Source: Bacillota bacterium
GTDB lineage: Bacteria; Bacillota; Sulfobacillia; JAJZYS01; JAJYTV01
Assembly: GCA_021793645.1 (NCBI GenBank)
Contig: JAJYSJ010000004.1
Span: forward strand, 62,001-126,000
Direction of reading: 5' to 3'
Length of the DNA stretch: 64,000 nucleotides
In this document: positions 22,152-27,459 of the stretch, piece by piece
Position numbering within the stretch: the stretch's first letter is position 1
Layout: each line of letters begins with the position of its first letter
Made by a program: the position numbers and the translations under genes
Notes under the pieces: generated by a model
Seen by the model: only the letters and a program-made list of their open reading frames with translations
What the model was told of the DNA's origin: nothing
The model's database searches: none

Positions 22152-23431
22152 TCCGTTTTCGAAGCAGCCGGATCTGGCGCTCTACGGAAGAAGTGCGCAA
22201 AGAGGAGTGCGTTTGCCGCCTGGAAGGCCGAGGCGAGTTCGAGCGGCAGGGCCATGAGGTCCAGCGACTCCATGAGCCAGCCTCCGAGGTACGGAGAGAT
22301 GCTTGTCGTGACCTGCGCAGGGAGGGATGAGGCGGAGGAGAGCCGACCACGCTCCTCGGGTTCGACGAGGTCGAGCACGAAGGATTGGCGGATCGGATTC
22401 GCGACCATCTGGAAGGCCATGCGCAGCACGTACACGATGCTGGCCCAGAGAAACGTAGGCGTGAATGGCAAGAGCGCCGTGAACGCCGCCCCCAGCAGGC
22501 GCGTCCAGAGGATCGCCGGGATGCTGCCAACGCGCTCGGCGAGGCGCGCAGCGCCCAGGTAGGGGAGTGCGGTAACGAGGTTGGTCACGGTGAAGAGCAT
22601 TGCCAGCTGTGCTGCGCCTACGCCGAAGCGGACGTGCAGCCAGTACGTTAGGAAGGGGCCGAGGAAGCCGGCACCAAAGCCGTTCAGGCTGTTCGTCAAG
22701 GAGAGCCGCCAGACGGCTCGGCGGGCTTTCACAGAGAGTCTGCGCCCCTCGATCCGGGCAGCCGGCACGGCTGGTGCCTCGCGTACGGGCAGCACGAGCA
22801 GGCCGGCGGCGAGCTGCGCGAGGCCTGCCAGCACCAGGGTGATGGCGTCGCCTCCCGCCCGCGTGATCCCGACGCCTTGCAAGACGTCCGGCAGCGCGGC
22901 CACCAGCGAACCCAGGGCGCCTGCCAGCACGCCCAGCAGTGACATGCGGGCGAATACCTCGTTGCGTGCGCTGCGCGGGACCACCTCGGCGATCAGGGGC
23001 TGCTCGACAGGAGCGAACGGACCCCAGGCCCCGCCAGAACCCGCTACGCCACCGCGCGCAAGGGCGCCGATGAACGCGAAGAGCAGCAGCAGCAGGTAGT
23101 TCGAGGCCAGTCCGAAGCCCACTGTGGCGATGCCCGCGAGCGCCGCGATTGCCAGCAGCACCGGGCGCCGCCCGTAGCGGTCGCCGAGGAAGCCGGCGCT
23201 CAGCAGGATGACTGCGCCGCCGATCGAGGCAAAGGTGAACACCAGCCCGGCTGCGGTCGGGCGAAGCCCGCGCTCCGCGACGAGCAGCGGCAGAACGACG
23301 GTGACGATCGACATCGCAAAGCTGCGCACCACGCGCGACGCGAGCAGGAAAAGATACTCCCTGCGGCGAGGGATGGACTGGTCTGCCGTTGTGCCACCTT
23401 CTTCCGAATGTCCGAGCACGGATGCCTGCTC
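22148..23431 (-). CDS. MFS transporter (start approximate; ORF open to 23710)
   Basis: VVLPLLVAERGLRPTAAGLVFTFASIGGAVILLSAGFLGDRYGRRPVL. Confidence 0.75.
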   Translation of the reverse strand, partial: EQASVLGHSEEGGTTADQSIPRRREYLFLLASRVVRSFAMSIVTVVLPLLVAERGLRPTAAGLVFTFASIGGAVILLSAGFLGDRYGRRPVLLAIAALAGIATVGFGLASNYLLLLLFAFIGALARGGVAGSGGAWGPFAPVEQPLIAEVVPRSARNEVFARMSLLGVLAGALGSLVAALPDVLQGVGITRAGGDAITLVLAGLAQLAAGLLVLPVREAPAVPAARIEGRRLSVKARRAVWRLSLTNSLNGFGAGFLGPFLTYWLHVRFGVGAAQLAMLFTVTNLVTALPYLGAARLAERVGSIPAILWTRLLGAAFTALLPFTPTFLWASIVYVLRMAFQMVANPIRQSFVLDLVEPEERGRLSSASSLPAQVTTSISPYLGGWLMESLDLMALPLELASAFQAANALLFAHFFRRAPDPAASKTD

Positions 23432-24118
23432 GCAATAGACAACACCCTGTACAATGGATGTACCCGTTTGATACTCCTGGGGAGCGTGGATGGGATCAGC
23501 TACGACGTCGTATTCCTGCGTGCCATACTCGGGTCGGTATACCCATGCACTTGGCCTCTGCCCGTCGTGGCGATCGGTCTGGCGGTCGCTGGCGGACAGG
23601 GGGCTACGGTCTCTCGCAACCGCCTGATCGCCTACGCCATCGGGTTCGTCATCGCGTTCACGCTGCTGCACCTCTACGGAACACCCGTCGCGAACTGGCT
23701 TGAGCGCCACCGGATGGTCGGCGAACTCGCCTTGGCCTTCCTTCTGATTTTTGAAGGTCTATTCCTTCTCGGGGTGCAGAACGTCTGGGCCCGCCTGCGC
23801 GGCAAGAGGCCCGGGGAGGATCCCGCCAGCGACGCGACCACAGCGACGCTGCTTGGCCTTGGGATGCCGTTCGCCACGACCCTTTGCCTGAGCACAGCGG
23901 CGCTGGCGGGAGCTTCGGCCTTGGGCGATGCGGGCAATGTAGGCGCCGCGGCAGCCGTCATCCTGATCATCGCCGTCGGTACGGCACTTGGACTTCTGCT
24001 CGTCGGGCACCTGGCCTACTTGGTCTGGCGCCGATTGCCCCCGGCTACCATCATCCCCCGGATTGCGGGCGGCGCCTTCGTCATCCTCGCGATCCTGATC
24101 GTGCTGGGTCGCGCATAG
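23408..24118 (+). CDS. CcdA-like thiol-disulfide transmembrane protein (start uncertain, possibly GTG ~23487)
   Basis: Six-TM-like profile with conserved Cys in VYPCTWPLP and TTLCLSTAAL; followed by a TlpA-like gene. Confidence 0.65.
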   Translation: MSEHGCLLAIDNTLYNGCTRLILLGSVDGISYDVVFLRAILGSVYPCTWPLPVVAIGLAVAGGQGATVSRNRLIAYAIGFVIAFTLLHLYGTPVANWLERHRMVGELALAFLLIFEGLFLLGVQNVWARLRGKRPGEDPASDATTATLLGLGMPFATTLCLSTAALAGASALGDAGNVGAAAAVILIIAVGTALGLLLVGHLAYLVWRRLPPATIIPRIAGGAFVILAILIVLGRA

Positions 24119-24140: not shown

Positions 24141-24683
24141 ATGCGCCGGTATCGGCCCTATCTGATCGGAACCATCGTGTTTGCAGCACTGTTGGCAATA
24201 GGCTTTCTCGGCCTGCGCCCCGTGCCGTCCGCGCCGAAGACCGTCGGCATCCAGGTCGGGCAGATCGCGCCGGATTGGAAACTGCCCCGTCTGGACGGGC
24301 ACGGCAGCATTCGCCTCGCCTCCCTGCGCGGGCAGCCGGTCTGGGTCAACTTCTTCGCGTCGTGGTGTCCGCCGTGCAATGCGGAGGCGCCGGGAATTGC
24401 GAAGGTGGCCGCGCAGAACCCAGGCCTCAAGGTGATCGGCGTCGACTTGACAGCCTCAGAGAAGAGCACGGGCGATGTGCAGGCCTTCGTCAAGAAGTAC
24501 CACATCGGCTTCCCCGTCGTGTTGGATACGCAGAATTCGGTCGCAAACCGCTACCAGGTGCAGTTCATTCCGACGAGCTTCTTCATCGACCGGCAGGGAG
24601 TGATCCAGGCGGTGGTGCAGTCCCCGGTCGTCAAGACGATGATCCCCCAGTATCTCGCGAAGATCGGCTTCACGCCGAAGTAG
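24141..24683 (+). CDS. TlpA/ResA-like membrane-anchored thiol-disulfide oxidoreductase
   Basis: N-terminal TM, VNFFASWCPPCNAEAP, FIPTSFFIDRQG. Confidence 0.9.
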   Translation: MRRYRPYLIGTIVFAALLAIGFLGLRPVPSAPKTVGIQVGQIAPDWKLPRLDGHGSIRLASLRGQPVWVNFFASWCPPCNAEAPGIAKVAAQNPGLKVIGVDLTASEKSTGDVQAFVKKYHIGFPVVLDTQNSVANRYQVQFIPTSFFIDRQGVIQAVVQSPVVKTMIPQYLAKIGFTPK

Positions 24684-24993: not shown

Positions 24994-25263
24994 TTGCAGG
25001 CTTCGGTGGACGTGCGGGTCGATGCCCGCGGGAGCGACTGCCCTGCGCCGCTCATGGAGATGATCGGCGCCGTGCAGACGGCGCAGGCCGGACAGGTGGT
25101 GGCAGTCCTCTCGAACGACTCCATGGCTCGTGCAGACATCCCACTCTGGGCCGCGAAGTCGGGCAACGAACTGCTCGCTGTGGAGCGGCACGAAGACTGT
25201 GAAGAGTACATCGTGCGCAAGCTGCCCCATGCCTTGGCACAGCTCGAGGACATCGGGAGGTGA
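24994..25263 (+). CDS. TusA-family sulfurtransferase-like protein (paralog 1)
   Basis: VDARGSDCPAPLMEMIGAVQTAQAGQVVAVLSND; TTG start. Confidence 0.82.
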   Translation: MQASVDVRVDARGSDCPAPLMEMIGAVQTAQAGQVVAVLSNDSMARADIPLWAAKSGNELLAVERHEDCEEYIVRKLPHALAQLEDIGR

Positions 25264-25267
25264 GGCC

Positions 25268-25933
25268 ATGCAGGTAGCACAGCGGGTTCGCGTAGTGACG
25301 ATCGCGGAAAGTACGGTCGTGCGCGCGGGCCTGCGCGCCCTCCTGCAGGACGCGCCGGACATTGAAGTGGTCGCTGACGCGAGAAACGCGAATGAGGCTT
25401 GTCGCGTAGCCCGGGAGGCGGGTGCGGAGGTCGCGGTTCTGGAGGTGCGGGACCCGGCGAAGATTGACGAGAGGACCTGCCAGGAAATCCGCCAGCAGTA
25501 TCCCGCCTGCAAGGTGCTCATCATCACGGCGCGCAGCGACGATGAGACGATCCTCGGCCTGATCATGGACGGTGCTGCGGGCTACCTGTTCGAGGACGTC
25601 ACCGCCGAGGAGCTGGCGAACGCAATCCGCACTGTCTGGGAGGGCGGGGCGCCGATGGATCCGCAGATGGCGTCTGTCGTAGCCGGGCGCCTGCGCGCGC
25701 GGTCCCTTGGAGAGCATAGTCCATGGGCGCCGCTGACGATCGACGAGTATGAGGTGCTGGAGCGCATCGTACGCGGCGAAACGAACCGTCAGATCAGCAA
25801 GGAGCTTAGGCTGGACGACAAGATCATCAAGCACCGCGTCTCCAGCATCCTGAAGAAGATCGGCGCAAAGAACCGCGTCGCGGCGGCAGCGTGGTGGGCG
25901 CGCCACCAGCCGGAACCGGCTCGGCAGGCCTAG
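25268..25933 (+). CDS. LuxR-type response regulator with degenerate receiver domain
   Basis: Receiver-like N-half without canonical DD/D/K; C-terminal HTH LTIDEYEVLERIVRGETNRQISKELRLDDKIIKHRVSSILKKIG. Confidence 0.85.
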   Translation: MQVAQRVRVVTIAESTVVRAGLRALLQDAPDIEVVADARNANEACRVAREAGAEVAVLEVRDPAKIDERTCQEIRQQYPACKVLIITARSDDETILGLIMDGAAGYLFEDVTAEELANAIRTVWEGGAPMDPQMASVVAGRLRARSLGEHSPWAPLTIDEYEVLERIVRGETNRQISKELRLDDKIIKHRVSSILKKIGAKNRVAAAAWWARHQPEPARQA

Positions 25934-25989: not shown

Positions 25990-27411
25990 CTAGGCGAAGA
26001 GGGTTTCCGGCTCCCCTCCCGCAAGAGGGGCGCGCAGAATGCGGTGGTTGCCGCTGTCCGCGATGAATAGGGCGCCATCTTGAACCTTGATGGCATGCGG
26101 TTCGCGCAAGCCGTCGAGGAAGGTCTCGATCCTTCCCTCGCGGAGGAGTAGGACACGGATCTTGTCGTTGTACGTGTCTGCGATGTAGAGTCGGTCCCCA
26201 TCGACCGCGAGGCCGCTCGGATGCTGCAGGAGCGCAAGGTCCAACGGGCCGTCGCGGTCTCCGAAGTCGAAAAGCCCCTGGCCGATCAGCGTGCGGACGA
26301 CGCCCTCCCCGGACATTGGCACCTCGCGAATCGCGCTTGACTCGGCGTCGGCCGCGTACAGCGTGTCGCCCTGCGCAGCGAGCCCCATCGGCTGGGCGAA
26401 GCGAGAACGCGCCAACGATGCGTCGTAGAGTGCCTCGTAGCCGCTCCCTGCGTACATGCTGAGGCTCTGGCGGCGCAGGTCGAGACGCCAGATCTGGTGT
26501 GCGCCGGCCATGGCGATGAACAGCTGCTCGCCCTGCAAGTGGACATCCCACGGCGAGCGGAGGTCGGTCGACCTGGGCGGACCGGGCGGCAGCAGATGCT
26601 GGGCTAGGCGGCCGCTCCCGGCGATGGTCGTGACGCCGCCCTGCGGCAGTCCGATCCGGCGGATCGCATGGTTTCCGGAGTCCGCGACGAAGACGTGGCG
26701 CGTGTTCGCGAACAGTCCGTGGGGGTCGTTGAACTGCGCCTGTTCGGCGGAGCCGTCGAGGAAGCCCTCACTGCCGCTGCCAATCGCTTCGAAGGAAGAA
26801 GTCCCGGTGTGCAGCCGCAGCACGCGGTGGTGGCCGGAGTCCGCTACGAACAGGGCATTCCCCTCGCCGAAGGCCAAGCCGCCAGGGTAGCGCAGGATGC
26901 CCCCGACGGCGGCGAGCTTGGCTGAGGGTATGGGCGCGTCACTGAGTATCCCTTGCGACGCGGCGCGCTGTAGTTCGGGCTTGAGAATGCGCGCCAGTTC
27001 CTCCGGTGAGATCTCTCCCTCATGCCGCGCGAAGACCATGCCTTCCGGGTCAAGGAAGATGAGAGTCGGCCAAGCGCGCACTGCGTAGGCCTTCCAGACG
27101 GTGAAGTCCGGGTCGTTCAGGACGGGATGCTCAATGCCCTCGCGGCGCATCGCATCAGCGACGCGGCCGGCGTCGTGCTCGCGGGTGAACTTCCCGCAGT
27201 GCACGCCGATCGCCGCGACGTAGGGCGCGTGGAGCGCTTCGGCCTGCCGCAACTGTGGCAGGATATGATGGCAGTTGATTCAGCCGTATGTCCAGAAATC
27301 CAGGATGACGACCTTGCCCCGCAGGTCTTGGAGATGCACGCCTTGGTGGCCCACCCACTCGAGACCAGCGGGGAAATCGGGCGCGTGAACGCGCGCGCTG
27401 TCAGAAAACAT
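25990..27411 (-). CDS. NHLRC2-like thioredoxin-domain + NHL-repeat protein; in-frame TGA at codon 44 (candidate selenocysteine)
   Basis: Start ATG 27411 after [51 protein letters not shown][TGA][31 protein letters not shown], then the supplied ORF continues in frame with NHL repeats. Confidence 0.75.
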
Positions 27412-27459
27412 GAGGACTCCCCCCTGGCCATCATGACCGAGGCGGAGGGGAGCGGCAAG

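Follow-up and report, generated by a model that had tools for sequence, protein, structure and literature searches.

The closest described systems to the gene reported here are human NHLRC2 and Arabidopsis SOQ1, which share a thioredoxin-like (Trx) domain followed by an NHL beta-propeller. In NHLRC2, a CCINC motif lies in the inter-domain cleft beside a cis-Pro (PMC6107167). Whether the Trx domain is redox-active in NHLRC2 and SOQ1, and which cysteine reacts, is unsettled (PMC6107167, PMC10173003).

A gene of this type was found on the minus strand of the window, i.e., the whole stretch of 64,000 nucleotides of the genome of an uncultured Bacillota bacterium that was analysed. An ATG at 27411 opened a frame of 473 residues that was closed by a TAG at 25992..25990, and the single interruption of this frame was a TGA at 27282..27280 (codon 44) within DFWTYG-U-INC. 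A preliminary description of this DNA had proposed a single in-frame TGA with the frame intact into the NHL propeller and an ATG with a Shine-Dalgarno sequence, and frame reading bore out both. It had also pointed out that the mechanically listed ORF, which begins at TTG 27252, is without the active site; this proved correct, and that start falls within the loop of the SECIS hairpin. The features were as follows:

25990..27411, minus strand: probable selenocysteine (Sec)-containing Trx-NHL gene, 473 aa with U44, from frame reading and homologues.
27424..27417, minus strand: Shine-Dalgarno-like GGGGGGAG, 5 nt ahead of the ATG; the ATG of the relatives L016 and L017 is also preceded by one.
27280..27282, minus strand: in-frame TGA, codon 44, first position of UxxC, read as selenocysteine; TGA in 47 distinct full-length homologues and TGC/TGT in 47 others.
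27271..27273, minus strand: codon of Cys47, the proposed resolving cysteine of UINC, invariant in an alignment of 33 sequences.
27243..27262, minus strand: putative SECIS stem-loop CCTGCCAC-AGTT-GCGGCAGG, loop 27254..27251, 25 nt from UGA to loop, one A.C mismatch, hairpin alone -10.5 kcal/mol.
26962..27387, minus strand: thioredoxin-like domain, residues 9-150, from Pfam (AhpC-TSA, Thioredoxin_8) and the structure model.
25993..26901, minus strand: NHL beta-propeller, residues 171-473, from Pfam NHL (3.4e-31), the model (pLDDT 94.9) and Foldseek matches to 6gc1 and 7djk.

An AlphaFold2 model built from 33 family members (pLDDT 94.9, pTM 0.93) placed U44 directly ahead of helix alpha-1 (residues 45-60), and Foldseek aligned it with 6gc1 (NHLRC2) and 7djk (SOQ1) at TM 0.92-0.93. 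The top PDB sequence match was Arabidopsis SOQ1 (2.1e-85), followed by human NHLRC2 (1.6e-67), which adds SOQ1 to the nearest characterised relatives given in the preliminary description. With human NHLRC2 (32% identity) the window protein shares the Trx-like domain, the six-bladed NHL propeller behind it and a redox motif located in the inter-domain cleft, but NHLRC2 carries CCINC, with Cys in place of Sec, and a C-terminal beta domain, whereas the window protein carries GUINC and is without that domain. Sec aligned with the second Cys of CCINC, which is human Cys90. The lumenal region of SOQ1 (7djj, 7djk) has the same Trx-NHL order with the motif in the same place; it differs in its CCINC and its C-terminal domain, and SOQ1 is membrane-anchored, lumenal and equipped with a HAD domain, whereas the window protein is probably cytosolic, since no hydrophobic N-terminus was found in it. 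The residue preceding U was Gly in the window (GUINC) and Cys in most Chloroflexota forms (CUINC), and neither shows the CC(I/V)NC of the NHLRC2/SOQ1 family. All Sec Trx-NHL forms ended 406-469 residues after U (429 in the window), compared to 532-626 in many Cys forms: a C-terminal domain after the propeller was present in many Cys homologues and absent in the Sec forms, as it was in short-type bacterial Cys homologues.

Several described selenoproteins, namely Redoxin/Prx-like 3, Prx-like thiol:disulfide oxidoreductase and thiol-disulfide isomerase-like protein (PMC13188914 Table 1), also combine a Trx fold with UxxC, but their descriptions include no NHL propeller, and it is by description only that they are set apart here. 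The gene could thus be a real selenoprotein that has already been counted in a generic family, either 'Redoxin family protein' (Prx-like 3, PF08534) or 'thiol-disulfide isomerase-like protein' (Thioredoxin_8/COG0526), both of which are listed as UxxC. Its Trx half matched PF08534 (5e-6; 26.8 bits against a cut-off of 26.6) and PF13905 (9e-11) in Pfam, and metagenomic reads might reveal the Trx half alone. On the other hand, the described fusion partner of Prx-like 3 is a CxxC domain rather than a propeller; none of the NCBIfam models, including those for selenoproteins, scored over its cut-off for the Trx-NHL protein; the inventory of prokaryotic selenoproteins of May 2026, with 119 families, contained no NHL protein; the main texts of the GOS paper and deep-Sep, and reviews including one of 2022, made no mention of NHL; and a literature search for NHLRC2 together with selenocysteine returned nothing relevant. 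We consider earlier counting possible but rather unlikely. The earlier suggestion that this is not a described selenoprotein family consequently holds with respect to the inventory and NCBIfam, and is qualified by the lesser chance that part of the protein was detected before under one of the generic entries.

The distribution of the family was assessed by scanning GTDB genomes with a query whose Sec column was masked; the 80 loci considered scored best among more than 580, and the Sec share among them is therefore no census. Among these best 80, TGA forms outside close Bacillota MAGs occurred in Chloroflexota (Dehalococcoidia, SAR202, Anaerolineae and others), Thermomicrobia/Sphaerobacter and one NC10 genome, an extension beyond the preliminary description, and TGC/TGT forms in Acidobacteriota, Armatimonadota, Planctomycetota, Pseudomonadota and others. 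The tree set comprised 47 distinct full-length Sec rows and 47 Cys rows; the latter had TGC/TGT at the very codon occupied by TGA, and their alignment contained DFWTY(C/G)CINC, both as had been predicted for a replacement of the redox Cys that yields UxxC. Bacterial Cys Trx-NHL proteins such as L066 (Fimbriimonadales), L098 (Blastocatellia) and L091 (Rheinheimera) were full-length homologues with approximately 39-46% identity, but had TGC/TGT at the Sec codon, no hairpin of the Sec type and, in many cases, the C-terminal domain.

When 400 genomes were sampled evenly from the phylum of L056, a strict nucleotide pattern (FWTY[C/G]U[I/V]NC) matched in 20 of them and had no matches in reverse controls. 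Fourteen of these matches were Trx-NHL genes (4 of them known already) and 6 were a different standalone protein. This latter, found in six genomes (L144-L149), was a lipoprotein-type redoxin of ~190 aa that contained FWTYGUINCxNDIP and had a hairpin of its own downstream of the UGA, with a GGUCU loop that resembles the one of E. coli fdhF; it is a candidate for a second, related Trx with a Sec form.

The host genome (3.4 Mb, 96% complete) encoded selA (535.5 bits), selB (305.6 bits over 1-357, its C-terminal part following in that frame), selD with an in-frame TGA of its own (ASGUGCK) and a tRNA-Sec (selC) with a UCA anticodon (69.3 bits; ARAGORN concurred). All four genes that the preliminary description had proposed searching for were therefore present, and the lack of Sec machinery that it had named as grounds for refutation was not observed. 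The selA gene adjoined selD (L009, L010; G000:C40:60408-62775), the product of which is itself a selenoprotein. Of the genomes from the same GTDB scan, those with the Sec form had selA over the cut-off in 25 cases out of 28 and those with the Cys form in 7 out of 22 (Fisher p=6e-5, a value that overstates independence because the genomes are related). Two of the three Sec genomes without selA over the cut-off had selB over it; the third, G074, had neither, probably due to MAG incompleteness. Because selA was common in the host's class (over the cut-off in 44 of 61 genomes), its co-occurrence inside Bacillota was uninformative; it was found in 9/9 Bacillota genomes with the Sec form, including G004, where it was a contig-edge fragment only and a complete selB lay elsewhere.

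According to the bSECIS model, a bacterial SECIS element has a loop of 3-9 nt with G in the first two loop positions, an upper stem of 4-16 bp, a distance of 16-37 nt from the UGA and an MFE of at most -7.5 (PMC13188914). The hairpin of the Sec forms lay within all of these bounds, the window copy with one A.C mismatch. It read CCGC-AGUU-GCGG nearly always, with the loop 25 nt past the UGA, and was absent after the corresponding codon of the Cys forms. Variants were mostly compensatory, e.g., TCGC/GCGA (L077), TCCC/GGGG (L063, L070), CCCC/GGGG (L150) and CCCGC-GTT-GCGGG (L123 group), while in L072 the hairpin was built differently (CCAGAGC-TGGAC-GCTCTGG) and the second loop position was G. In a covariation test of 35 sequences, from which L072 and L123 had been excluded beforehand as their hairpins are in another register, stem cells were paired in 97.1% vs. 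85.5% in shuffles and doubly changed in 32 cells vs. 9.3; the covariation score was reached by 0 of 500 shuffles, and shifting the stem partners abolished pairing. Four imperfect hairpins (L015, L069, L085, L102) escaped a simple search for perfect stems; the AGTT loop and inner stem were seen in them by eye, though the default fold of L085 favoured another structure. Rfam gave no match at gathering score over the window or at E up to 1 near the gene, which is uninformative since bacterial SECIS elements vary.

In the window, the element reads CCACAGTTGCGG, and its A.C mismatch results from a Pro codon CCA instead of CCG. Among the Bacillota family members the mismatch occurred in the window copy alone; it may make Sec insertion less efficient in this one genome, or the mismatched base may be an error.

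The hairpin also constrains the protein, a point not made in the preliminary description. Residues 8-11 after U were PQLR in 32 of 37 Sec forms and PDLK or PELK in 30 of 48 Cys forms, indicating from the coding sequence that the hairpin shapes the protein at this site. The Leu codon in the hairpin loop was TTG in 36/37 Sec forms vs. 6/48 Cys forms; TTG makes up 2-12% of Leu codons in the Bacillota genes analysed.

The same TTG bears on the alternative that UGA44 is read through otherwise, by near-cognate Trp or by Cys via the Sec pathway, or serves as a switch, with termination and re-initiation at TTG27252 or later yielding a propeller-only protein. That start sits in the SECIS loop, and UGA/SECIS sites often terminate partly. 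However, the TTG is fixed as part of the hairpin, and the hairpin together with the full Sec machinery provides a simpler account, which makes this alternative improbable.

Within the genus or family of the host, eight full-length Trx-NHL genes (L016-L022 and that of the window, L015) had exactly one TGA each, at codon 44, as did L024 from another family of the same class; in all nine the frame was otherwise open. The genome of L025, a congener of that of L024, had TGC at the Sec codon, and the two form a natural Sec/Cys pair within one genus. By NG86 on the codon alignment, dN was well below dS both upstream (L015/L016: dN 0.18, dS 1.49) and downstream (dN 0.16, dS 0.92) of the TGA, i.e., the sequences point to purifying selection on either side of it. 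Nine loci with an identical single TGA and dN below dS on both sides place the TGA at codon 44 beyond chance. The further TGA-containing orthologues and TGC/TGT homologues that the preliminary description had suggested looking for thus exist both near (nine loci in genus, family or class; L025) and far (47 Sec and 47 Cys rows), and the random stop with decay in close relatives that would have spoken against it was absent.

A pseudogene, in which TGA44 would simply end translation early and the frame after it would be a remnant, is very improbable: TGA is a stop in table 11 and most close orthologues terminate with it, but the same TGA occurred in distant phyla, more than 420 further codons stayed open, selection was purifying on both sides and the hairpin was conserved. 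A sequencing or assembly error (TGC to TGA) has a negligible probability, since, although most of the genomes are MAGs, assemblies made independently in many projects agreed and the error would need to track both the hairpin and the selA-bearing genomes. Pseudogene, error and non-Sec readthrough were all rejected. With UGA44 at the position of an active-site Cys, a stem-loop at the position of a bacterial SECIS and Sec machinery in the genome, the gene product is very probably a true selenoprotein that represents the NHLRC2/SOQ1-type Trx-NHL family in its Sec form, in agreement with the preliminary reading.

Parsimony on a quick tree required 3 Sec/Cys changes. After masking of the residues encoded by the SECIS, a tree with a single Sec clade fitted at least as well and was retained by the AU test (p=0.567). 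Together with the shared 12-mer, this makes one origin of Sec, followed by transfer or losses, plausible.

The gene neighbourhood gave no functional lead except for a LuxR-type response regulator (25130-25933, plus strand), which converges on the Sec gene and kept its place in six same-family loci (L017-L022). A TlpA/ResA-like thioredoxin gene (WCPPC; 24141-24683, plus strand) lay nearby, adjoined by a gene for a membrane protein without a Pfam match (23408-24118, plus strand); homologues of both occurred near the Sec gene in L017 and L055.

For the selenoprotein, the following mechanism may be proposed. SelB and Sec-tRNA would bind the AGUU-loop hairpin and decode UGA44 as Sec. Sec44, ahead of helix alpha-1, would be the nucleophile and attack an oxidised or disulfide substrate in the cleft between Trx domain and propeller; Cys47 would resolve the intermediate to a selenenylsulfide, which a general reductant, either thioredoxin or a low-molecular-weight thiol, could then recycle. 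It counts against this scheme that even for NHLRC2 and SOQ1 the question of redox activity is unsettled (PMC6107167, PMC10173003).

Ordinary gene calling truncates Sec Trx-NHL genes, because the UGA cuts the active site off the predicted ORF. The Sec form would add a family to the selenoprotein inventory. The chances appear evenly balanced for the wider reading, in which an undescribed, widespread Sec-NHLRC2/SOQ1 family with a near-fixed 12-nt SECIS (CCGCAGUUGCGG) arose once and spread among Bacillota, Chloroflexota and others, and in which Sec reveals the catalytic nucleophile of the NHLRC2/SOQ1 family as a whole. Mice cannot do without NHLRC2, which is mutated in FINCA disease of humans; in plants, SOQ1 controls photoprotection. 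That evolution put Sec exactly at the second position of C-C-I-N-C argues that this residue would be the nucleophile and that the family would be one of true redox enzymes.
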